Below are positions 1-13,525 of a stretch of 64,000 nucleotides of DNA, one piece after another. The notes beneath the pieces are model-generated. The model saw only the letters and a program-made list of their open reading frames with translations, was not told the DNA's origin and did no database searches. How positions within the stretch are numbered: position 1 is the first letter of the stretch; each line of letters begins with the position of its first letter. Origin of the DNA: Solirubrobacteraceae bacterium (lineage in GTDB: Bacteria > Actinomycetota > Thermoleophilia > Solirubrobacterales > Solirubrobacteraceae); NCBI GenBank assembly GCA_017744415.1, contig JAGIBJ010000117.1, forward strand, positions 1 to 64,000, in the 5' to 3' direction. The position numbers and the translations under genes were made by a program.

Positions 1-782
1 CCGTTGGAGCCCGTGAGCGTGTGGGAGCCGAAGCTGACGGTCGAGGGCGCGGTGAGGTTGAGGCCGCCCTGGGCGCACGGCATCGGTGCCAGGATGAAGG
101 TCTGGAGACCGAGGTGGCCGTTGTCGTCGAGCGTGAATCCGCGGGTCGCGGTCGTCCCGACGCCGGTCGACTCGTAGGCGGTGCCGATCGACGCGTCGCT
201 GCCGGACTCGTTGTCCTCCACGCAGAGCGTCGTCAGGCCGGAGCCCATTGTCGTCGTCGAACCGTCGTCGATGCCGATCGCGGAATAGCGCATGCTGCCC
301 GCCGCCACGCCCGTGCTGTTCGGAAAGTTGCCGCTCGTCGCGAGCGAGGAGACGATCGTTTGCGCCGGCGTGCCGTCGATCGGCGACGTCGTGTCGACGC
401 CCCGGAAGGACGCGAGGCTGGCCGAGGCCACGTCGGCCCCTGACCCGCCCGTAAAGGTGTAGTTGGCCGCGGGCGCGGCGCTGAGCACCCGGTAGTACGT
501 GATCAGCTCTTGGTTGGCGCCGAACGAGGCCTTGAGGTTCGGCACCTGCGTCCAGCCCGACGGGGCAGACGTCGAGCCGCTCACGCCGGCGTACGCCACG
601 CTCGCAACCATCACGTCACCGCTCGCCGTTCCGGCGGGGGTCGCCAGCGTGATCGAGCCGCTGGCGGCCTGGCCACACGTCTTGCTGCGGTAGGTCACGG
701 CGCCCTGCGCGAGCGAGGTACCGAACGTCGCCACGCTGGCGATCGCCGCGGTGAGCGTAGTGACGAGGGCTGACGCGTGCAT
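1..782 (-). CDS. Secreted surface protein entering a WxL-like domain (3' end off the window)
   Basis: The minus-strand frame is open from an ATG at 782 to the window edge, giving at least 260 residues with no stop, so the C-terminus is missing. Residues 1-27 form a signal peptide ending near SLAQG. Residues 30-230 are a beta-rich domain containing ITLATPAGTASGDVMVA, SGWTQVPN, YYRVLSA and FRGVDTTSPIDG. I recognise this pattern as a domain common in secreted actinobacterial proteins (SITxxxPAGTxxGDxLVA...GVDTxSPID). The last visible residues, LTAPSTVSFGSHTLTGSN, resemble the first strand of WxL-type domains, which bind the cell wall in Firmicutes. It is divergent from the cyclase / DUF916 cluster. 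The WxL assignment rests on about 18 residues plus the neighbouring DUF916 proteins, so it is tentative; the secreted status is firm. Confidence 0.72.
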   Translation of the reverse strand, partial: MHASALVTTLTAAIASVATFGTSLAQGAVTYRSKTCGQAASGSITLATPAGTASGDVMVASVAYAGVSGSTSAPSGWTQVPNLKASFGANQELITYYRVLSAAPAANYTFTGGSGADVASASLASFRGVDTTSPIDGTPAQTIVSSLATSGNFPNSTGVAAGSMRYSAIGIDDGSTTTMGSGLTTLCVEDNESGSDASIGTAYESTGVGTTATRGFTLDDNGHLGLQTFILAPMPCAQGGLNLTAPSTVSFGSHTLTGSN

Positions 783-1220
783 GGGGTGGGGGTAGGCGCG
801 CGCGTGGGCGCCCGTATTCCACACGTCGGTCCGTAGCGGCTGGCACCCCGCCATGGACGGCCATTCGTCTGATGAGCCGCCCCTCAACCTGGCGCTGAGG
901 CGCCAACTTCGGCGGAAATCGGTGTGAAGATCGGCCTCGGGAGCGACCGGCGTTCGGCGGAGAGGCTCGCCGGGCCGTGTTCGAGATGGGTCAGGGCTCG
1001 GCCGCGATCGTGAGATCACCAGCGATTGGCTCGCAGCGAGCAATGTCGCCGTCGGGCTTCCGAAGGAGGCGCTGAACCCTGGCGCACCACGGCTCGGTGG
1101 CACGCTCAACATCGACCGTTCGTCGACTCCGATGCCCCTCTGTGCGGTTCATACCGCGGTACCGCCCCGTTTCGTCCGGATCGGCTCAAAACTCGCGAGG
1201 GGGCCGCCGATCCTCCGAAC
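783..1220. other. Divergent intergenic region (438 bp) between the secreted protein and the first cyclase
   Basis: No convincing gene was found. The cyclase frame stays open upstream to a TTG at 1026, but that extension (Arg/Glu/Pro-rich, no hydrophobic segment) has no counterpart in the paralogous cyclase at 5615. The region probably holds the divergent promoters for the two transcripts. I found no clear sigma-70 hexamers and no recognisable c-di-GMP riboswitch. Confidence 0.4.
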
Positions 1221-2801
1221 GTGAAGTTGGCTGCCTCGCCCACCTCCGTTGATCTCGTTCCGCTCGGCGAACGGCTTCGGCTCATCTCTTACTTCCGCGC
1301 CGCGGCGATCGCCGTGCTGCTGGCGGCATGGATCCTGCTGCCGACCTCGCGTGGGATCGAGTTCGGTGCGCTCGCCGGCGTGTCGCTGGGCTACTTCGCC
1401 CTGATGGCCGCCATCGAGTGGTACTGGAGCCACTCCGGCCGCCGCGCACGCTTCATCTTCGGCATCTTCGCCATGAGCGACGCGCTGTTCATCGGCTGGG
1501 CCACCTACGGGCAGGCCGGCCTCGACACGCCGGTGCGCTCACTGATTCTCCTGCAGATCATCACGATCTGCCTCCTCGCCTCGTTCCGCACCGGCATCAA
1601 GCTCGCCCTCTTCAGCGCGTGGCTGCTCCTCGGCGCGGTGTACGTGCAGGAGGCCGGGATCCTCAACACGCTCGGCGGCGAGGTGGCCGCCTTCGGCGGC
1701 GACGACTACCGCGGCCTCGCGGTCGACATCACCGTCTACTTCCTCGTCGCGATCGCGACCACCGCCTTCGCGGCCGTCAACGAGCGAGAGCTGCGCCGCC
1801 GCCGCTACGACCTCGAGGCGCTCGCTCAGTTCGCACTCAAGCTCGATCAGGCGGAGACGCCCGGGCAGGTGGCGACGAGCCTCCTCGACGCCGTCGCCGA
1901 CATCTACGACTGCGAGCCGTCGCTCGTCGTCCGCAAGGACGGTGACCACGGCATCCGCGTGGTCGCGGCGCGCGGCATCCCGAGCACCGGTGCGCCGGTG
2001 CCGCTCAGCGCCGTGCCTGTCGTGTCCCGCGCGATGGAGTCCGACCAGACGCGTCTCGTCGCCCGCCGCGGTGAGGAGACCGATGCCCTGCTCGCTCGCT
2101 TTGCGCCCACCGCCAACGTCGCGGTGATGCCGCTCCACGGCCATCACGGCGCCGCCGCCGGTGCCCTCCTCCTCGAGCAGCCAGCCCGCCGCGGCTCGCG
2201 CATCGAGAAGCGGATCATCGGCATGCTCGAGCAGTTCACGTCGCACGCGTCGCTCGCGCTCGAGAACGCCAACCTTCTCGCCGAGGTGCGCGCACTCGCG
2301 ATCACCGATCCGCTGACGGGCCTCGCCAACCGCCGCCACCTCGACAACGTGCTCGAGCGCAGCACCTCGCAGGTGCGCCGCGGCAACGGCACCCTCGCGC
2401 TGATGATGATCGACATCGATCACTTCAAGAACCTGAACGACACCCACGGCCACCAGATGGGTGATGAGATGCTCCGTCGCGTCGCCCGCGCCCTCGAGGT
2501 GGATCTGCGCGCCGGCGATCTCGCCGCCCGCTACGGCGGCGAGGAGTTCAGCATCGTGATGCCCGGAAGCCGCGCTGAAGAGGTGCTGGACGCCGGGGAG
2601 CGGCTGCGCCGCTCGATCGCCGCACTTGATGGACCCGTCCCGGTCACCGTGAGCATCGGCGTCGCCTGGGCGCCGGAGCACGGCCTCTCGCGCGACGACC
2701 TCGTCAGGAACGCCGACGCCGCGCTCTATCGCGCGAAGGAAGGCGGGCGCAACCGCGTCGAGATGGCTGCCCCACCGATGAAGCTCGCCGATGCGAGCTA
2801 G
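1221..2801 (+). CDS. Membrane diguanylate cyclase (six helices, GAF-like, GGDEF), paralogue 1
   Basis: Makes c-di-GMP from two GTP at the membrane. The 526-residue product has about six hydrophobic helices (residues 28-190), a linker rich in Arg (NERELRRRRYD), a GAF-like region (about 205-330) and a GGDEF domain (about 350-515). The active-site motif GGEEF is intact at 439-443. An inhibitory-site RxxD (RAGD, 430-433) lies exactly five residues before it, so product inhibition is expected. DPLTGLANRRH marks the domain start. The GTG at 1221 was chosen because the N-terminus then lines up with the paralogue at 5615 (DLVPLxER in both, 526 and 528 residues); the Shine-Dalgarno is weak. The 3' end overlaps the next gene by 11 bp, implying co-transcription. 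The signal sensed by the helical part is unknown. Confidence 0.9.
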   Translation: MKLAASPTSVDLVPLGERLRLISYFRAAAIAVLLAAWILLPTSRGIEFGALAGVSLGYFALMAAIEWYWSHSGRRARFIFGIFAMSDALFIGWATYGQAGLDTPVRSLILLQIITICLLASFRTGIKLALFSAWLLLGAVYVQEAGILNTLGGEVAAFGGDDYRGLAVDITVYFLVAIATTAFAAVNERELRRRRYDLEALAQFALKLDQAETPGQVATSLLDAVADIYDCEPSLVVRKDGDHGIRVVAARGIPSTGAPVPLSAVPVVSRAMESDQTRLVARRGEETDALLARFAPTANVAVMPLHGHHGAAAGALLLEQPARRGSRIEKRIIGMLEQFTSHASLALENANLLAEVRALAITDPLTGLANRRHLDNVLERSTSQVRRGNGTLALMMIDIDHFKNLNDTHGHQMGDEMLRRVARALEVDLRAGDLAARYGGEEFSIVMPGSRAEEVLDAGERLRRSIAALDGPVPVTVSIGVAWAPEHGLSRDDLVRNADAALYRAKEGGRNRVEMAAPPMKLADAS

Positions 2802-4164
2802 CCTCCGCCAGGGCATGCGCCGCCTCCGGGCGGCGTTCGTCGTCGTCGCGGCCCTTGCCGCCGTGCCCTCGTCGGCGGTGGCCGATGGCGGCGTCGGCTA
2901 CCGGGTCGACGGCGAGCCGGGCTCGATGCTCGAGGACGGCTTCATCACGCTGCACCTCGGCCCCGGTGGCTCAGCGAGCGGCCACTTCGAGGCGACCAAC
3001 ACGAGCCGCTCGAACGCTCAGCTCAGCGTCTATTCGTCGGACGGCCTCACGGGTGACACGACCGGCATCGTCTACAGCGACGCCGGCTACAAGCTCAAGG
3101 ATGCCGGCGCCTGGCTCACACCCTCGGTCGGCGGCATGCTGCTCCCCGCCAACTCGTCGCGGCGCATCGACTTCTCCGTCCGCGTGCCCGCGAACGCGCG
3201 TACCGGCGACCACGTCGGCGGCATCGTCCTCGAGCAGCGCCGCACCGGCGGCGCGATCTCGCAGGTCGTGCGCAACGTGGTCCCCGTGCTCGTCGATGTG
3301 CAGGGCGGCGCCGGCACGTCGATCGATCTGCGCTCCGCGCTCGTGAGCCAGCTGCCGGGCACCGACCAGCCTGCGGTGATCGTGAAGATGGTCAACGACG
3401 GCCGGCGCATCTGCCGCCCGACGCTCACGGTCGCGCTCACCGGCCCGAGCGAGCGAGGCGCCCCGGTGAGCCGCCAGCTCGACGCGCTCCTGCCGGGCGA
3501 CGGCGTGCCATTCCCGCTGCCGTGGCCGCGCACCCTCGACGCCGGCACCTACCAGGCGTCGGTGACCACCACCGGCTGTGGTGCCACCGAGACCCTGCGC
3601 ACCGACGTGCGCAGCACGCTCCCCTACGAGACCGATCCGCCGCGCGGCAACAACGGCACCAACAGCGAGCCCGTCGTCACCGCTGCCCCGCCCGACACCG
3701 GCAGCTTCACCGCCCCCAGGGGTGGCGGCAAGAACGGCACCGACGAGGATCGCTCGCAGGGCAGCAACGTGCCGCCGTTCTCGGCCTCCGGTAGCGCGGG
3801 TGGCGGCACGCCGAGTGGCGCCTCCGGCTCGTCGTCGAAGGCGGCCACCGCCAAGGGCGGCAGCTTCACCGGTCCCGGCAAGCTCTTCAGCGATCTCGGC
3901 GACGTGGCCATCAAATACCTGCCGCCACTGCTGGAGCGCCTCGTTGCGCCGCTCTCGCTGCTCGGCCTGATGCTGCTCTTCCTCTTCGCCCAGGAGACGT
4001 TCGACCGCAAGGATCCGAAGCTGGCGCTCGCGCCGATCCACCGCGATCCAGACCTCGAGTTCCTGCCGCTCAGCCAGCTCGATGCGCCGTTCCAGCCTGA
4101 CGCCAGTCCGGGGGACCTCGAGGTCGTCCGTTCGCCGAGTGCACCGAGTCCGGCCCCCGGCTAG
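2791..4164 (+). CDS. DUF916-like (WxL-interacting type) membrane-anchored surface protein 1
   Basis: Exported protein of 457 residues. A signal peptide (residues 1-32) is followed by a DUF916-like beta domain (about 38-170) with the family's pattern: FEATNTSRSNAQLSVYSSDG, a segment before the strand WLTP, LLPANSSRRIDFSVRVP and GDHVGGIVLEQ. A second immunoglobulin-like module (about 180-270), placed like DUF3324 in WxL-interacting proteins, carries FPLPWPRTLDAGTY, with Cys208 and Cys263 placed for a disulfide. A Thr/Ser/Gly/Pro linker (275-375) leads to a helix (about 380-401) and the tail RKDPKLALAPI (DPK from 408). In Firmicutes such proteins bind peptidoglycan and WxL proteins; that role here is inferred. 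An in-frame ATG at 2815 is an alternative start. The family call is from pattern, not a search. Confidence 0.8.
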   Translation: MRASLRQGMRRLRAAFVVVAALAAVPSSAVADGGVGYRVDGEPGSMLEDGFITLHLGPGGSASGHFEATNTSRSNAQLSVYSSDGLTGDTTGIVYSDAGYKLKDAGAWLTPSVGGMLLPANSSRRIDFSVRVPANARTGDHVGGIVLEQRRTGGAISQVVRNVVPVLVDVQGGAGTSIDLRSALVSQLPGTDQPAVIVKMVNDGRRICRPTLTVALTGPSERGAPVSRQLDALLPGDGVPFPLPWPRTLDAGTYQASVTTTGCGATETLRTDVRSTLPYETDPPRGNNGTNSEPVVTAAPPDTGSFTAPRGGGKNGTDEDRSQGSNVPPFSASGSAGGGTPSGASGSSSKAATAKGGSFTGPGKLFSDLGDVAIKYLPPLLERLVAPLSLLGLMLLFLFAQETFDRKDPKLALAPIHRDPDLEFLPLSQLDAPFQPDASPGDLEVVRSPSAPSPAPG

Positions 4165-4246
4165 GTCGATCAACCGGCCAGTGCCTGTCGTCGCGTCAAG
4201 GTCCACCACGAGCGCCGCCCTCGCGCATAAGCTGCCCGTTACGAGC

Positions 4247-5458
4247 ATGTTCGCCTTGCCGAAGCCCGCCGCGGGTCATCGCCGTCGCCGCGCCGTCCGT
4301 GCCGCGCTCGCCGCCTCGCTTGCCTTCGTTGCCACCGGCGTCGCGAGCCCGGCTGCCCTCGCCGCGTCGGCCGAGCAGGCGGTGAAGTCGGGCAACGCCC
4401 CGCTCATCGGCGGGTTCAGCGCCCGCGCGCTCGACGAGAACGGCCAGGTGACGCCGAAGACCTACTTCGAGCTGAAGATGAAGCCCGGGGAGTCGTTCGA
4501 CGGCACCATCCTCGTCACCAATGCCGCGGAAGACTTCGTGCGCCTGCGCGTGGATTCCGTCGACGGCCTCACGGGCGAGACGAGCGGCACGGTCTACGCG
4601 AACCGCACCGATCCGCGCAAGGAGACGTCGCAGTGGATCGAGCCGAAGAAGGCGAAGCTGCGCATGGATGCCGACTCCCAGCGCCAGCTCGGCTTCCACC
4701 TGCACGTGCCGGATGACGCGGCGCCCGGCGATCACGTCGGCGCCATCGCCTTCCAGCGCATCATCAAGCCGAAGGAGGGCGCGCAGTTCTCCGTCCGGCA
4801 GGTGCTGCGCGTCGCGGTGGCCATCCAGATCCGCGTCGAGGGGCCGGCCGACGCCAAGCTCGAGCTTGGCGCCATTACCCTGAAGGCGCTCGGCGGCACG
4901 CAGATCCCGGCGGTGAACCTCGAGCTCAAGAACACCGGCCAGCTGTTGTGTCGCCCGGCGCTCAATGTCACGCTCGCCCAGGGTGGCGAGAGCCTCGGCA
5001 CCGTGAACCGCCAGCTCGACACGATCCTCGCGGGCGACACCATCAACTACCCGCTGCCGTGGCCCAAGCCGCTCGACCCGGGCACCTACGACGTGACCGC
5101 TGCCACCAGCGGCTGCGGCCCCGAGGCGAAGACCACCCAGAGCGTGAAACTCGAGGCCGCGCTGCGCGGCAGCACGGGTGCGCCCGGCCCCGACACCGCC
5201 GCCCTCTCCGACAACGGCGGCGGTATCCCGTGGTGGGCGATGCTCCTCGCGGTGCTCGGCGCCCTCGGCGTCGGCTTCTTCTTCGCTCGCCGCACCGGCA
5301 AGAAGAACGACGATCCGCCGGCGGCCGCGGCTGCTCCGGTGGAGCCCTCGCCGGCCTCGCCGGCCTCGCCGGCCGCTGAGGCCACGCCGGCCGAGCCTGT
5401 GCCGGCCGGCCAGGCCGTCGCCATCGAGCCTGAGAAGGCGCCTCGCGGCGAAGCTTGA
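4247..5458 (+). CDS. DUF916-like (WxL-interacting type) membrane-anchored surface protein 2
   Basis: Exported protein of 403 residues. A signal peptide covers about residues 1-40 (basic GHRRRRAVR, then a hydrophobic stretch ending AALAAS). The DUF916-like domain (about 50-190) has YFELKMKPGESFDGTILVTN, RVDSVDGLTGETSGTVY and PGDHVGAIAFQR, closely parallel to the preceding gene (SDGLTGDTTGIVY, TGDHVGGIVLEQ). The second module has YPLPWPKPLDPGTY and the cysteine pair 235/290, with the same 55-residue spacing as its neighbour. A Trp-flanked helix (GGIPWWAMLLAVLGALGVGF) anchors it and the tail is Pro/Ala/Glu-rich; it lacks the DPKLALAPI tail of the other two. The ATG at 4247 was chosen because it directly precedes the signal peptide. 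Likely a tandem duplicate of the upstream gene whose anchor has diverged. Confidence 0.8.
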   Translation: MFALPKPAAGHRRRRAVRAALAASLAFVATGVASPAALAASAEQAVKSGNAPLIGGFSARALDENGQVTPKTYFELKMKPGESFDGTILVTNAAEDFVRLRVDSVDGLTGETSGTVYANRTDPRKETSQWIEPKKAKLRMDADSQRQLGFHLHVPDDAAPGDHVGAIAFQRIIKPKEGAQFSVRQVLRVAVAIQIRVEGPADAKLELGAITLKALGGTQIPAVNLELKNTGQLLCRPALNVTLAQGGESLGTVNRQLDTILAGDTINYPLPWPKPLDPGTYDVTAATSGCGPEAKTTQSVKLEAALRGSTGAPGPDTAALSDNGGGIPWWAMLLAVLGALGVGFFFARRTGKKNDDPPAAAAAPVEPSPASPASPAAEATPAEPVPAGQAVAIEPEKAPRGEA

Positions 5459-5614
5459 GAGCGGTCACGCGCCTGGTCCTTGCGCGTACCCTCCCGATTT
5501 CCGGGTGAATCTGGCCAACCGTCGGATTCCATACTTGCGTGTCGCTCGTCACGTGCCGAGTACTGAGTCATAGAACTGGTCCAACCGGACGGTTCGCGAA
5601 CTTGGGGACGCAGC

Positions 5615-7201
5615 GTGCTGGGGAGCAAGCGCATTCACGATCTCGTGCCGCTCAACGAGCGCACGCGCATGATGGAAGGGGTCCGGGCGGGCTTGGCCAC
5701 GCTCGTGATCGTCGCCTGGCTCACGGTGCCGGCGACGCGCGGCACCAGCTTCCTCACCCTCGCGCTGGCCGCCGGCGGCTACGTGGCGGTGATCGCGATC
5801 GCGCAGCGCGCGTGGATCCGCCAGGGTCTCTCGCTCGCACTCTTCTTCGGCGTCGCCGTGATGCTCGACGCCGCCGCCCTCGCCTGGGCCTCCTACGGCA
5901 CCTCGGGCGTCGACAGCCCGCTGCGCCTCATCCTGATCCTGCAGCTCATCACGGTCTCGCTCGTGGGCAGCTTCCGGCTGGGCCTCAAGCTCGCGCTGTT
6001 CCAGGTGTGGATGCTGCTCGGCGCCGTCTACCTGCAGGAGCTCGGCGTGCGCACCCTCGGAGGAGAGCGTGTGTCGTTCGGCAGCCCGGAGTTCCGCACC
6101 GTCGGCCTCGAGCTCGCACTCACCGTGCTCGTCGCGGCCGTCACGACCGGCTTCGCGGCCGTCAACGAGCGCGAGCTGCGCCGCCGCCGCAGCGACGTGG
6201 AGGAGCTGGCCGCCCTCACGATGCGTCTCGACGATGCCGAGGGTCCGCTGGCGATCGCTGGCACGTTGCTCGCGGGCATCGAGGAGCTGCATGGCACCCC
6301 GCGCGGAATCGTCGTGCGTCGCTGCGAGGCCGGCGATTACGCCGTGCTCGCCGCCCGCGGCATGGAGCTCACTGCCGATCACGGCCCGTTCACCGCTGAG
6401 GCCGCGAGCCTCGTCGAGATGGTGCGCTCCGCTGGGCGCGCCGCCCTGCTCGTCCACCGCCAGGCCCACGGCGACGCGCTCCTCACGCACTTCCCCGATG
6501 GTGCCCGCTTGGCGCTCGTGCCGCTCGCGATCGACGACTCGGCCGGCGTGCTCATCGTCGAGCACCCGCCCGAGGCCGGTAGCCGCATGCAGCACCGCAT
6601 CCTCGCGCTGCTCTCCCGCTACGCCGCCCACGCCGCGATCGTGATTCGCAACGCCGAGCTGCTGGAGCGCGTGCGCGCCCTCGCGACCACCGACGGCCTC
6701 ACCGGCCTGCCGAACCGCCGCCACCTCGACGAGGCTCTCGATCGCGCGTGCGCGCAGGTGGCTCGCGGCCACGGCTCGCTCGGCGTGCTCATGATCGACG
6801 TCGACCACTTCAAGAAGCTGAACGACACCCACGGCCACCAGGTCGGCGATGAGGTGCTCAAGCACGTCGCCAAGGTGCTCGACAGCGAGCTGCGTGCCGG
6901 CGACATGGTCGCCCGCTACGGCGGCGAGGAGTTCACCGTCGTGATGCCGGGTGCGCAGGGCGTCGAGGCGAAGGGCGCAGCCGAACGCCTGCGGTGCGCT
7001 ATCGAGCTCGCCGCCGGGCCGGTCGACGTGACCGTCAGCGTCGGTGTCGCATGGGCGCCGCTGCACGGCACGTCACGCGTGGATCTCGTCGCGTCGGCCG
7101 ATGCAGCGCTCTATGAGGCCAAGCAGCGCGGCCGCAACTGCACCGCGCTGGCGAAGACCATCGACCCGTCGCCCCATCCCGTCGATGCGCAGGTGAACTG
7201 A
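5615..7201 (+). CDS. Membrane diguanylate cyclase (six helices, GAF-like, GGDEF), paralogue 2
   Basis: A 528-residue cyclase, colinear over its whole length with the protein at 1221-2801: DLVPLNER near the N-terminus, six hydrophobic helices, AAVNERELRRRRSDVEEL after the last helix, a GAF-like region, then GGDEF. GGEEF is at 436-440 and the inhibitory RAGD at 427-430, so activity and product inhibition are both expected. The GTG start has a good Shine-Dalgarno (GGGGA six bases upstream). The stop overlaps the next ATG by one base (TGATG), implying translational coupling to the surface protein that follows. The 156-bp gap upstream may hold a separate promoter. The membrane and GAF parts differ more between paralogues than the cyclase domain, which fits different inputs with the same output (inference). 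Confidence 0.9.
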   Translation: MLGSKRIHDLVPLNERTRMMEGVRAGLATLVIVAWLTVPATRGTSFLTLALAAGGYVAVIAIAQRAWIRQGLSLALFFGVAVMLDAAALAWASYGTSGVDSPLRLILILQLITVSLVGSFRLGLKLALFQVWMLLGAVYLQELGVRTLGGERVSFGSPEFRTVGLELALTVLVAAVTTGFAAVNERELRRRRSDVEELAALTMRLDDAEGPLAIAGTLLAGIEELHGTPRGIVVRRCEAGDYAVLAARGMELTADHGPFTAEAASLVEMVRSAGRAALLVHRQAHGDALLTHFPDGARLALVPLAIDDSAGVLIVEHPPEAGSRMQHRILALLSRYAAHAAIVIRNAELLERVRALATTDGLTGLPNRRHLDEALDRACAQVARGHGSLGVLMIDVDHFKKLNDTHGHQVGDEVLKHVAKVLDSELRAGDMVARYGGEEFTVVMPGAQGVEAKGAAERLRCAIELAAGPVDVTVSVGVAWAPLHGTSRVDLVASADAALYEAKQRGRNCTALAKTIDPSPHPVDAQVN

Positions 7202-8487
7202 TGCCGCCAAGCCAGCTCCTCACCAGCGCCGTGGTGGCCACGGTCCTCCTTGGTATTGGCACCCCCGCGGCTTCCGCGCAGGACGCCACGCCCGGCACAC
7301 CCACCACCGCCCGCGCCGGGCTCCTCGGCAGCGTCACCAAGCCGGTGACCACGACGCTCGACGGTGCTCTGCAGTCGGTGTCGTCGGCGACGGGTGGTGC
7401 GGTCACGCTGCCCTCGACCACCGATCTCACCTCGGGCGTCGTCGACACCGTCGATGGCACCGTGCAGGTGGTCGCGAGCACCGTCGATCAGGTCACCGCC
7501 CCGGTCACCCAGGCGCTCTCGGGCCCGCAGGCCGCGATCTCGCTGCCGGGCCTGGCTCAGCTCGATGGGGCTGCGGTGCTCGATCTCGTCGTCGGCAACG
7601 TCGGCACCGACGCGTGCGCTCCGGTCGCCGATCTCGCGATCACGGGCAAGGACGGCGTGAGGGTGGCCGGTGGCGTCACGCAGCTGCTCTCGATCCTGCC
7701 TGGCGCGAGCCGCGAATACGCACTGCCGTGGCCGTCGGGTCTGGATGCCGGCACCTACGCCGTCGGCGCCTCGGTGAGCGGCTGCGGCAGCCTCCAGGCG
7801 CTGTCGCTCTCCGTCACCGTTGGCGGCGACGAGGCCCAGCAGAGCCGCTCCGGCTCCGGCGGCGGCGGCACGGGCTCGACGGGCGGTACCGGCAGCGGGG
7901 GTTCGACTGGCTCGTCGTCGAGCGGTTCGACGTCTCAGTCCTCGGATGCCGGCTCCTCGTCCGGCGGCGGCAACCGGCAGACGGATTCCGGCTCGGCCGT
8001 TCGCAATGCGACTTCCGGCGGCGCCGGCGGGCCCGATTCGGGCACGCTCGTCGCCGATCACAGTGTGGGCAACCGCGCGGCGCGCACAGGCGGCCGCGCG
8101 CGTGCTCCACGCCCCGCGGCCGGTGGGGCGCTCGCTGCTGGCCCCGCGGCTCCGGCCGCCATGCTCGCCAACCCCGATCGCGATTCCGCCAAGCTCGCCC
8201 GCGCGTCCGGAGCCGTCTCCAGCACCGTCGCCGGCCCGCCGCGCAACACCATCGGCGAGACCGCCTCCGCCGTCGCCCGCGCGCTGCCCGCCGTCATCGA
8301 GCGCGCCGCCCCGGCCCTCGCCGTCCTCGGCCTCATCGGCGCCCTCTTCCTCCTCCAGGAGGGCCTCGCCAAGCGCGACCCCAAGCTCGCCCTCGCCCCC
8401 ATCGGCCCGGTCGAAGATCTCGACTTCGACGAGCCCGAAGGCTTGCTGCGCCACTTCGCGAAGCCGCCGGCGCCGCGCGGCGGGTAG
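7201..8487 (+). CDS. Exported C-terminally anchored surface protein, third LPWP/two-Cys family member, no DUF916 domain
   Basis: A 428-residue protein with a signal peptide (1-29, ending ASAQ) and a Thr/Val-rich low-complexity stretch (30-110) in place of DUF916. The shared module has YALPWPSGLDAGTY (LPWP from 175) and cysteines at 139 and 195 (spacing 56, against 55 in the two upstream proteins). A long Gly/Ser/Thr linker (about 210-350) leads to a helix (about 362-384) and the tail KRDPKLALAPI (DPK from 393), nearly identical to the tail of the protein at 2791. It is translationally coupled to the cyclase upstream. Function is unknown. The domain loss suggests it keeps the partner-binding module but not the wall-binding one, by analogy with the two-domain WxL-interacting proteins (inference). 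Confidence 0.72.
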   Translation: MPPSQLLTSAVVATVLLGIGTPAASAQDATPGTPTTARAGLLGSVTKPVTTTLDGALQSVSSATGGAVTLPSTTDLTSGVVDTVDGTVQVVASTVDQVTAPVTQALSGPQAAISLPGLAQLDGAAVLDLVVGNVGTDACAPVADLAITGKDGVRVAGGVTQLLSILPGASREYALPWPSGLDAGTYAVGASVSGCGSLQALSLSVTVGGDEAQQSRSGSGGGGTGSTGGTGSGGSTGSSSSGSTSQSSDAGSSSGGGNRQTDSGSAVRNATSGGAGGPDSGTLVADHSVGNRAARTGGRARAPRPAAGGALAAGPAAPAAMLANPDRDSAKLARASGAVSSTVAGPPRNTIGETASAVARALPAVIERAAPALAVLGLIGALFLLQEGLAKRDPKLALAPIGPVEDLDFDEPEGLLRHFAKPPAPRGG

Positions 8488-8672: not shown

Positions 8673-9380
8673 CTAGTGGCGTTCTCGAAGGAGTTGCTCA
8701 AGGCGGCCGAGGCGCTCGTCCAGTGCAGCGAGCTGATCGGCGACGGCGGTGTCCTGGCTCGGACCCTTGATGAAGCGCTCGGCCGCGGCTGCGGTGACGA
8801 GCGCCACGAAGCCGATGCCGACGGTCATGACCGTCATGGCGATCACCCGACCAGCGGTTGTCTCCGGGCTGATGTCGCCGTAGCCCACCGTGGTGACCGT
8901 TGTCATCGCCCACCAGATGCCGTCCCACGTCGAGAGATGCTGAGCGCGCTCGACCGATGCAAATGCTGCGCCGCCGCCGAGCACGACGGAGACCGCGAGC
9001 ACCGCGGCGTCGCGGATGCCCTCGGCTGAGAGCAGCCGGCGCACGATGACCGCCGTCTTGACGAGCCGGAGGAGCCGCAGCAACCGCAGTACTCGCGCAG
9101 CCTGCAGTGCCGCCGGTAGGAACGGAGGCGTGAGCAGCACGATCGCCACATCGAGCGGGTGCTCGCGCAGGTAGCGCCCGCGGCGCTCGCTCACCGCGAG
9201 CATCGCGACAAGTTCCGCGGCGAAGACGAGCCAGATGACCCAGTTCAGCGCTGATGCGACGTCGTTCCATGGTTCCGCCGCCGACTGCTCGAGCGCGAGG
9301 GCCGGGATCACCAGGATCGCCGCCGCGATGGTCGGCCACTCGAAGGCCGACTTCCACCGGGCTGCGCGATCCTCGTTCAC
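8673..9380 (-). CDS. Voltage-gated-type potassium channel, six transmembrane helices
   Basis: A 235-residue ion channel. Helices S1-S3 occupy about residues 12-95, and an S4-like helix carries regularly spaced arginines (RVLRLLRLLRLVKT). After S5 comes a pore loop with the selectivity filter TTVGYGD (GYGD at 166-169), then S6 and a short C-terminal segment (LDERLGRLEQLL) that could form a coiled coil. Length and order fit the small bacterial Kv/KvAP-like channels that have no cytoplasmic nucleotide-binding domain. The GTG at 9380 was chosen because the frame upstream to 9764 is non-hydrophobic, Arg/Ser-rich and overlaps the antitoxin gene on the other strand. It probably sets membrane potential or K+ flux; no regulatory domain is visible. 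Confidence 0.88.
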   Translation of the reverse strand: MNEDRAARWKSAFEWPTIAAAILVIPALALEQSAAEPWNDVASALNWVIWLVFAAELVAMLAVSERRGRYLREHPLDVAIVLLTPPFLPAALQAARVLRLLRLLRLVKTAVIVRRLLSAEGIRDAAVLAVSVVLGGGAAFASVERAQHLSTWDGIWWAMTTVTTVGYGDISPETTAGRVIAMTVMTVGIGFVALVTAAAAERFIKGPSQDTAVADQLAALDERLGRLEQLLRERH

Positions 9381-9480
9381 GCAAGGGCTATTCGTCGCGC
9401 TCCGATCCGTTCCTCGCGCTCGGCGACGCGGGCGGATCCAGCCCCCATCGGAAAGTTGCCGGCGAGCTACGCTGTGGCGC

Positions 9481-9735
9481 GTGGCCCGGAGGATCACAGA
9501 GCGAGAGCTGCGGAATGACAGCGGCGAGATCATGCGGGCGCTCACCGCCGGCGAATCGTTCGTGGTGACCTCGGACGGTGTGCCGGTCGGCGAGCTCAAC
9601 CCGGTGCGGCCGACGCGCTCTGCCGACGCTTCCGAACTGGTCGCCACGTTCGCGGGTTCGCCGCGTCTCGACGCTGCGCGGTTCCGCGAGGACATCGACG
9701 CAGTCGTCGACCAAGCCATTGCCTTGCGCGCTTGA
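9481..9735 (+). CDS. Phd/YefM-family antitoxin without an adjacent PIN toxin
   Basis: An 84-residue protein with the Phd/YefM pattern ITERELRNDSGEIMRALTAG followed by ESFVVTSDGVPVGEL, which in this family is the DNA-binding and dimerising half. The C-terminal half (residues 45-84, acidic) would neutralise the toxin. The GTG at 9481 starts exactly at the conserved VARRITE. Family members of this subtype are usually followed, with an overlap, by a VapC-type PIN ribonuclease starting M-I-x-L-D-T-S. Here the next frame is unrelated to PIN, so the antitoxin is either orphaned or paired with an unusual partner. It is divergent from the K+ channel across a 100-bp gap. Confidence 0.82.
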   Translation: MARRITERELRNDSGEIMRALTAGESFVVTSDGVPVGELNPVRPTRSADASELVATFAGSPRLDAARFREDIDAVVDQAIALRA

Positions 9736-9752
9736 TCCCCGAGGCGAGCACG

Positions 9753-10118
9753 ATGATCGAGCAATGGACCGTCGAATCGATGTACGGCCTCATAATCATC
9801 GCTGATCCCGATAACAAAGCTGCGGAGATCCCCGAGACCGGGAGAGAAACCGTGTTTACGAACTCCGCCGTCGCGGTCCCGGTGCAGCCCTACGTCGACG
9901 GACCCGTCTCGCTGTGGCTGGGACCAGCCAGCGAGATGACCAGGAAGTTCGTGGTGTTCGATGGCGAACTCGAGTGCCCCACGGGGCGGCTCGGCATCGA
10001 GCTGCCCGAGGACGACGACATCGTTGCAATCGACGTACCGCGACCAGTGATGCGCGTAGTGATCTCCATCGATGACCTGGATTTCGCTACATCGGTTTGG
10101 GTCGGCGTCGACCTCTGA
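9753..10118 (+). CDS. Unrecognised 121-residue protein directly after the antitoxin
   Basis: I do not recognise this protein. It is acidic and predicted all-beta (alternating hydrophobic stretches such as GLIIIAD, PVSLWLGP, RVVISID), with FVVFDGELECPTGRLGI in the middle. It has no signal peptide, no helix-turn-helix and no PIN acidic residues. The ATG at 9753 is preceded by GAGG at 8-base spacing; a TTG at 9732 overlapping the antitoxin stop (TTGA) is the alternative. By hand count 9781-10080 is 186/300 G+C (62%), visibly lower than the flanking genes, which suggests recent acquisition. The shape resembles small beta-sheet immunity-type proteins, but no family can be named. Confidence 0.55.
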   Translation: MIEQWTVESMYGLIIIADPDNKAAEIPETGRETVFTNSAVAVPVQPYVDGPVSLWLGPASEMTRKFVVFDGELECPTGRLGIELPEDDDIVAIDVPRPVMRVVISIDDLDFATSVWVGVDL

Positions 10119-10166: not shown

Positions 10167-10967
10167 CTACGTAAACGCGCTGCCCGCGATCCCGCACAGC
10201 GCTGGTACGTCGGCCACCGAGTCGATGAGCATCGTGGGCTGGATGCCGGCCTCGTCGAGGGCGTCCGGGCGGAACTTGCCGGTGCGGACTTGGATGCCGG
10301 CGATGCCGGCGTCGAGGGCGCCGCCGATGTCGGCCTCGAGGTCGTCGCCGATCATGGCGACGGTGGCGGGGTTGGCTTCGAGGTCGTCGATGGCGGCGTG
10401 GAAGTAGGCGGGGGAGGGCTTGCCGACGACGGTGGCGCCCTGGTCGGTGGCGTACTCGAGGGCGGCGACGAACGGGCCGGCATCGAGGACGAGGCCCTCG
10501 GGCCGGCGCCAGTAGCGGTTGCGCTGCAGGGCGATGAGGTCGGCGCCGCGGAGAAGCGAGCGGAAGGCACCGTTGAGGATGTCCCACGTGAAGCCGCGAC
10601 CGAGATCGCCGAGGATCACGGCATCAACGGCAGAGCCGCGGCTCTCGACGGCCTCGAGCTCCGAGAGATCCTCACGCAGCGCATGCGGGACGACGAGGGC
10701 GACGCGGTCGTAGCCACGCTCCTTGCAGAGCCGCACGGCCATCGAGGCGGGCGAGAGGATGTCGTCGGCGTCGAGGTCGAAGCCCATCCGCTGGAGGCGA
10801 TCGGCGATGGCGCTGCGCGGACGCGACGTGGTGTTGGTCGCCAGCCGGAACGGCACGCCACCACGCTTGATCTGCTCGATCGCGTCGACCGCTCCGGGCA
10901 CCGCCTCGTCGCCGACGTGCAGCACGCCATCGATATCGAGCAACAGTGCATCCCAGCGGGCCGGCAT
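10167..10967 (-). CDS. HAD-superfamily subfamily IIA hydrolase (NagD-like)
   Basis: A 266-residue phosphatase of the HAD IIA group. Motif I is LLLDIDGVLHVG (nucleophile Asp and general-acid Asp). Motif II is LATNTTSRPRS. GKPSPAYFHAAI supplies the motif III lysine, and MIGDDLEADIGGALDAG gives the motif IV acidic pair. The cap between motifs II and III has the size usual for this subfamily. Relatives dephosphorylate small phospho-metabolites (NagD nucleotides, 2-phosphoglycolate, PLP, or LHPP-type substrates); nothing in the sequence chooses among them. It is the first minus-strand gene beyond the ureAB terminator and probably has its own promoter in 10968-11158, where no other gene is visible. 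Confidence 0.87.
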   Translation of the reverse strand: MPARWDALLLDIDGVLHVGDEAVPGAVDAIEQIKRGGVPFRLATNTTSRPRSAIADRLQRMGFDLDADDILSPASMAVRLCKERGYDRVALVVPHALREDLSELEAVESRGSAVDAVILGDLGRGFTWDILNGAFRSLLRGADLIALQRNRYWRRPEGLVLDAGPFVAALEYATDQGATVVGKPSPAYFHAAIDDLEANPATVAMIGDDLEADIGGALDAGIAGIQVRTGKFRPDALDEAGIQPTMLIDSVADVPALCGIAGSAFT

Positions 10968-11903: not shown

Positions 11904-13446
<1,543 letters not shown>

Positions 13447-13525
13447 TGGTTGAGCGACGATCCTGACACGCCGCACGGCGGGCGGCCCCTCGCTGCTCTG
13501 GCGAGGCGTCTCGACGCGCGAAGCG

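Follow-up and report, generated by a model that had tools for sequence, protein, structure and literature searches.

Why are two diguanylate cyclases encoded in alternation with anchored surface proteins? The question is raised by positions 1–8487 of a window of 64,000 bases (bases 1–64000 of contig C117 in the 4.1 Mb draft genome of a Solirubrobacteraceae bacterium; the window begins at the contig end). Within a WxL/WxLIP cluster, this region encodes three anchored surface proteins along with two diguanylate cyclases whose GGEEF motif is intact. An earlier interpretation of the letters alone (the sequence-only reading) had listed these genes, described the alternating order of cyclase and surface genes and tied the cyclases to WxL and DUF916 proteins. 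The inventory and the order are borne out by gene and domain analysis. The tie holds in the window and in its Solirubrobacteraceae relatives. Judged by comparison of sequences, however, what is conserved beside the cyclase is neither WxL nor DUF916 but a transmembrane helix followed by a cytoplasmic tail with the motif DPKLALAP, and the ectodomain may instead be an NHL, immunoglobulin-like (Ig) or fn3 domain. Each cyclase and its tail-bearing neighbor probably constitute a two-protein split receptor. The features concerned are the following.

1–785, minus strand: first portion of a large WxL protein, with a signal peptide, an N-terminal domain of ~230 residues and the beginning of the WxL domain; the contig end cuts the gene, which is continued on contig C130 of the same genome (in-frame join; PF13731 match below the cut-off).
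1227–2801, plus strand: DGC1, diguanylate cyclase with a cytoplasmic N-terminus containing DLVPLGER, six transmembrane helices, GAF and GGDEF domains (profiles, model).
2298–2756, plus strand: GGDEF domain of DGC1.
2791–4164, plus strand: WxLIP-A; a signal peptide precedes the WxLIP fold of two domains, and a Gly/Ser linker leads to the single transmembrane helix and the conserved cytoplasmic tail.
3928–4161, plus strand: transmembrane helix and cytoplasmic tail of WxLIP-A, AQETFDRKDPKLALAPIHRDPDLEF, with DPKLALAP at about 4012–4035.
4247–5458, plus strand: WxLIP-B, an ordinary WxLIP with a transmembrane helix and without the DPKLALAP tail.
5615–7201, plus strand: DGC2, paralogue of DGC1 with identical architecture, GGEEF and I-site intact.
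6683–7138, plus strand: GGDEF domain of DGC2.
7201–8487, plus strand: SurfC, the partner of DGC2, with signal peptide, a stretch resembling the second WxLIP domain, a long low-complexity linker, transmembrane helix and DPKLALAP tail.
8314–8484, plus strand: transmembrane helix and cytoplasmic tail of SurfC, LQEGLAKRDPKLALAPIGPVEDLDF, with DPKLALAP at about 8377–8400.

DGC1 may alternatively start at the in-frame GTG at 1221. Genes overlap or touch at two junctions (2791/2801 and 7201/7201), and not at three of the four as counted earlier. The remaining gaps measure ~80 nucleotides (4164/4247) and ~155 nucleotides (5458/5615); the first changes if WxLIP-B starts at the upstream in-frame ATG at 4082.

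The C-termini of WxLIP-A and SurfC consist of a transmembrane helix and the tail (F)(L)xxQ-x-x-x-D-R-x-D-P-K-L-A-L-A-P...D-L-x-F. The tail is absent from WxLIP-B and from the WxLIPs of contig C130, although these proteins have transmembrane helices. Across 31 loci it takes the form Q-x-R-I-D-R-x-D-P-K-L-A-L-A-P and follows the single transmembrane helix of an exported protein. In the open-access literature no description of a pairing of tail protein and cyclase, or of WxL proteins and cyclic diguanylate (c-di-GMP), was found, which is no proof of absence, and none of the papers listed there for the motif together with the term ‘diguanylate cyclase’ contains the motif. The tail-marked pairing looks like an undescribed two-protein receptor.

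A profile of the six helices and the GAF domain (the sensor), with the GGDEF domain excluded, was used to scan 84,980 species, each represented by one genome. The scan yielded 36 loci, two of them in Chloroflexota and the others in Actinomycetota; the latter belong to Solirubrobacteraceae, Acidimicrobiia, Frankiaceae, Pseudonocardiales, Kineococcus, Cellulomonas, Acidothermus and Nitriliruptoraceae. The adjacent gene ends in the tail at 31 of the 36. Many of the compared loci come from draft metagenome-assembled genomes and several are cut by contig ends, among them three of the tailless ones (L060, L063 and L082); L064 and L079 are real exceptions. The association was also followed from the tail to the sensor. 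Tails are present in 5 of 111 genomes of the family, all with a sensor gene except G039, where the contig ends. One of the more distant genomes (G002) encodes a further, third tail protein, followed downstream by another giant Ig protein whose gene is cut by the contig end. In a sample of the phylum, tails occur in 19 of 396 genomes (that of the window included). Outside the latter there are 21 tail loci: 17 are located beside a sensor, three are not (L129, L131 and L134) and one lies at a contig end, which gives 17 of 20 informative loci. At L134 (816–1505) the start of the gene following the tail gene resembles a small exported protein of the SipW/TasA type. At most loci the stop codon of the tail gene precedes the N-terminal LVPL motif of the enzyme by 9–92 nucleotides. 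In the WxLIP clade the gene order is reversed and the pairing is retained.

Both outer ends of the pair vary. The ectodomain of the partner is an NHL propeller, Ig-like Big_13, fn3 or WxLIP_PGBD, or none is recognized. The output domain is GGDEF in most cases; at seven loci the six helices and GAF are fused to a histidine-kinase C-terminus, and HisKA_3 and HATPase_c were matched by Pfam in the five of these seven that were scanned. A simple motif search around the partners of the kinase type did not find NarL regulators. GG[DE]EF is kept in all 34 GGDEF-type proteins and the I-site in 31 of them.

In the AlphaFold2 model of the sensor (predicted local distance difference test, pLDDT, of 90), six helices cross the membrane and the loops outside it are short; a long exit helix and a GAF fold are also present. 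The N-terminus is placed inside because the number of helices is even and GAF and GGDEF are cytoplasmic. The most conserved segments are residues 9–16 (DLVPLGER), 118–126 (ASFRTGIKL) and 181–200 (FAAVNERELRRRR...). Conservation amounts to 3.3–3.6 bits in these three inner segments versus 1.3–2.3 bits in the outer loops. With this topology the three segments lie at the inner face of the membrane, where the tail starts as well.

Transmembrane helix, tail and membrane sensor stay constant while ectodomain and output vary, as would be expected if tail and sensor touch. Since one class has a histidine kinase in place of GGDEF behind the sensor, the tail protein probably supplies the input. In the proposed mechanism, the exported protein would sit in the membrane of the bacterium itself by a single helix and expose its ectodomain, in this case WxLIP domains that bind wall-located WxL proteins, with the tail D-x-x-D-P-K-L-A-L-A-P...L-x-F at the inner face. 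The six-helix enzyme appears to have no large sensor of its own, since its outer loops are short. The tail would dock at the conserved inner-face segments of the enzyme, and the exported domain would serve as the missing sensor. When the outer complex binds, is loaded or is lost, the contact between tail and enzyme could then shift and c-di-GMP synthesis change via the GAF linker, so that the cell would read the state of its surface or its attachment. In the window, the c-di-GMP output would be set by the load of WxL proteins or wall on WxLIP-A. We infer the physical contact, the direction from outside to inside, the nature of the ligand and a rise in c-di-GMP upon stimulation. Chances are about even that the pairs form a phylum-wide class of split receptors with exchangeable ectodomains (WxLIP, NHL propeller, Ig, fn3), one transmembrane helix, a universal DPKLALAP tail, a six-helix GAF sensor and an exchangeable output (GGDEF or histidine kinase), which would read surface complexes into c-di-GMP or a phosphorelay.

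Several observations weigh against a split receptor. The pairing is not absolute, as three tail loci have no sensor and two sensor loci have no tail. A WxL complex as such needs no cyclase, because the neighboring WxLIP-B has no tail. The swap to a histidine kinase is probably a single event, since all seven loci belong to one class of 27 searched genomes. Finally, conserved segments one and three of the sensor contain motifs of the scan, and their conservation is in part due to ascertainment; the loop 118–126 is free of this effect.

The opposite direction, in which locally made c-di-GMP targets the surface protein's tail and controls the display, release or assembly of that protein (in spirit like LapD and LapA), is unlikely. 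Control of adhesins by c-di-GMP is well established, and the pairing and the tight coupling of the genes fit this direction too. The tail, however, comprises only ~25–60 residues and matches no model in Pfam or NCBIfam, sorting-signal models included, and hence contains no known c-di-GMP receptor domain. Moreover, one class pairs the same tail proteins with a histidine kinase, which makes no c-di-GMP; in these genomes surface control by c-di-GMP would lose its signal, and for this reason signaling from outside to inside is favored. The sequence-only reading had left it open whether the cyclases report on or control the assembly of the surface complex. Reporting is favored by the replacement of GGDEF by the histidine kinase, and control is the less favored part of that proposal.

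The tail might instead be a signal for membrane sorting, retention or assembly, with the six-helix enzyme merely co-regulated and not in direct signaling contact. A C-terminal transmembrane helix with a conserved motif does resemble the layout of a sorting signal, and the five exceptions to the pairing would be in line with this. A general signal should also occur without the enzyme, yet the tail is nearly confined to genomes and loci that have it, and WxLIP-B and the WxLIPs of contig C130 carry transmembrane helices without it. A known sorting signal was rejected on the ground that no curated model matched. A role in sorting, retention or assembly is therefore distinctly improbable.

The surface proteins were also compared with WxLIPs, which are defined by PF06030 (PGBD, the former DUF916), HBD (DUF3324) and a transmembrane helix. 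Two tandem DUF916-like anchored proteins had been proposed, and both were recovered. WxLIP-B matches PF06030 WxLIP_PGBD with 41.9 bits, above the curated cut-off of 27.3 bits. WxLIP-A remains below it (23.1 bits, E = 8e-5) and is identified by its fold: among PDB entries, its AlphaFold2 model best matches the solved structures of Enterococcus faecium WxLIP, both unbound and in complex with WxL (9i1y, E = 3.8e-13; 9i25), so that the DUF916 structure on which the sequence-only reading had staked its case is present in the protein at 2791. Pfam gives no match to the HBD, and the fold match of WxLIP-A to the whole WxLIP extends over both domains (257 columns). The overall pLDDT of 66 of the model results from the disordered linker; the two folded domains are mostly at 80–95, with lower values in loops (small alignment). 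The C-terminal transmembrane helix is present (residues 369–407 of the model). A sequence search of solved structures with WxLIP-B gave nothing useful, whereas the fold search with the WxLIP-A model did match. The third anchored protein, SurfC, had been taken as a further relative. A profile search did not find a DUF916/PGBD domain in it; the stretch resembling the second domain and the C-terminal tail remain, and by these features it is classed as a WxLIP-derived relative only.

WxL genes adjoin these proteins. The genome contains eight WxL and five WxLIP_PGBD matches. On contig C130 (10,987 bases) two WxLIPs and a large WxL protein are encoded along with small WxL genes, and the C-terminal part of a WxL domain lies at its end. 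When this contig is joined to the start of the window, the minus-strand gene continues in frame and the protein becomes complete, with the motifs WNL (first) and WTF (second); the secreted protein that was seen to enter a WxL-like domain would thus acquire a full one. The joined protein scores 22.6 bits with PF13731 (E 1e-4, cut-off 25 bits), and a join with zero missing bases is inferred. Through it the WxL and WxLIP genes of contig C130 cluster with the first gene of the window. Of two small WxL genes in tandem (L014, 4840–6492), the first is apparently broken or shifted, as its WxL match (C130:5195–5581) lies in a frame other than that of its surroundings. Large WxL proteins with an N-terminal repeat ending in SCPSTT.CYA (YCF48/propeller-like) occur at three separate sites of the genome (L014 7259–9784, L015 7589–9367 and L017 6373–8148).

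Are the cyclases then dedicated to WxL complexes? As a local version this is true: the tail proteins of the window and of its Solirubrobacteraceae relatives are WxLIPs, with large WxL-type genes next to them. Stated generally, it is contradicted and very improbable, because most loci with sensor and tail have no recognized WxLIP domain, and WxL/WxLIP clusters elsewhere in this genome lack a cyclase of this kind. A WxL-specific link was rejected as a general rule.

Both cyclases had been described as paralogous membrane GGDEF proteins, and they are 47% identical over their full length. The GGDEF profile gives 157 bits for each, and GAF_3 matches weakly in both. Both keep GGEEF and the RxxD I-site (RAGD in DGC1), and by these motifs they would synthesize c-di-GMP. 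Chance or passive adjacency in a genome with 60 GGDEF matches is practically excluded, since only DGC1 and DGC2 have the six-helix and GAF sensor and the pairing recurs throughout the phylum in two gene orders. Elsewhere in the genome GGDEF genes form tandem arrays, at C54:41730–53564 (>10 GGDEF matches in 12 kb) and also on C7, C64 and C113; such a density of c-di-GMP genes is unusual.

The tree points to an old duplication: DGC2 is placed outside the four DGC1 sequences (support 96/91), and all five group together at 100/99. The duplicated unit of cyclase and surface protein that had been read from the gene order is supported by this tree and by the KRDPKLALAP-type tail common to both cyclase partners. 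Relatives' gene order indicates that DGC2–SurfC is an extra module at the position of the window, because the HAD-type phosphatase gene located at 10167–10967 (minus strand) of the window comes directly after WxLIP-B in G039 and on contig C1193 of G053. This gene is kept close to the WxLIP genes of relatives (L022, L026 and L028) and serves as a synteny anchor. The closest named relatives at the locus are metagenome-assembled genomes of Solirubrobacteraceae. The cyclase is located directly beside WxLIP-A in three related Solirubrobacteraceae genomes (G021, G046 and G053), and its adjacency to DUF916 proteins thus extends beyond the genome of the window. In G039 the contig begins inside WxLIP-A and cuts off the position of the cyclase. 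More distant sensor relatives (G002 and G225) adjoin giant Ig-repeat proteins bearing the same tail. SipW-like signal peptidase genes are present beside two tail/cyclase loci of G016 and G002 (L046 7379–8065, minus strand; L047 6408–7499, plus strand).

Two further features of the window are recorded for completeness. A thiamine pyrophosphate riboswitch (13347–13452, minus strand) is located immediately upstream of a ThiC-like gene (11904–13358, minus strand). A frame at 9235–9735 (plus strand), whose end was named by eye as Phd/YefM-like antitoxin, lies opposite the start of an ion-channel gene (8673–9764, minus strand).

The inputs of c-di-GMP enzymes in Actinomycetota and some Chloroflexota are largely unknown. 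If the proposed split receptor is correct, the tail and its six-helix partner would provide a sequence rule for matching surface proteins to signaling enzymes in these groups.

LapD is a c-di-GMP receptor that acts through a periplasmic protease, and the LapD–LapG–LapA system resembles the present one in linking c-di-GMP to a large adhesin at the membrane. LapD is a degenerate GGDEF-EAL receptor, whereas the cyclases described here keep GGEEF and have no EAL domain. Parts of the LapD type, including the periplasmic protease, were not seen in this neighborhood; the protease was not searched for genome-wide. In the YfiBNR (TpbB) system of Pseudomonas aeruginosa, the cyclase is accompanied by the periplasmic repressor YfiR and an outer-membrane lipoprotein partner (PMC2837407, PMC4655355). 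There, as proposed here, a separate envelope protein encoded beside a membrane diguanylate cyclase sets its activity. No family of the YfiR repressor or YfiB partner type was found among the scanned window genes or the ten scanned partner proteins. The present partner differs in that it is exported, crosses the membrane once and bears a tail conserved on the cytoplasmic side; its ectodomain can be exchanged, and in one class the output is a kinase. WalK with YycH and YycI offers another parallel, in that an accessory membrane protein modulates a membrane signaling enzyme, as may be the case here; the families are different, and the partner is conserved as a whole there, whereas here only the transmembrane helix and tail are conserved and the ectodomain is exchanged (PMC7355866). 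A further likeness is to the WxL/WxLIP clusters of Bacillota, as WxLIP-A and WxLIP-B have the WxLIP fold and are located with WxL genes (PMC10599100, PMC9772566). WxLIP-A differs by its conserved cytoplasmic tail and partner cyclase. The terminal helix of WxLIPs has been proposed to insert in the host membrane (PMC10599100), which is hard to reconcile with WxLIP-A, because in this protein the helix is followed by a tail that is paired with one of the bacterium's own membrane enzymes. If the split receptor holds, it becomes testable whether the helix is located in the bacterium's own membrane, as the paired tail implies, or in that of the host.
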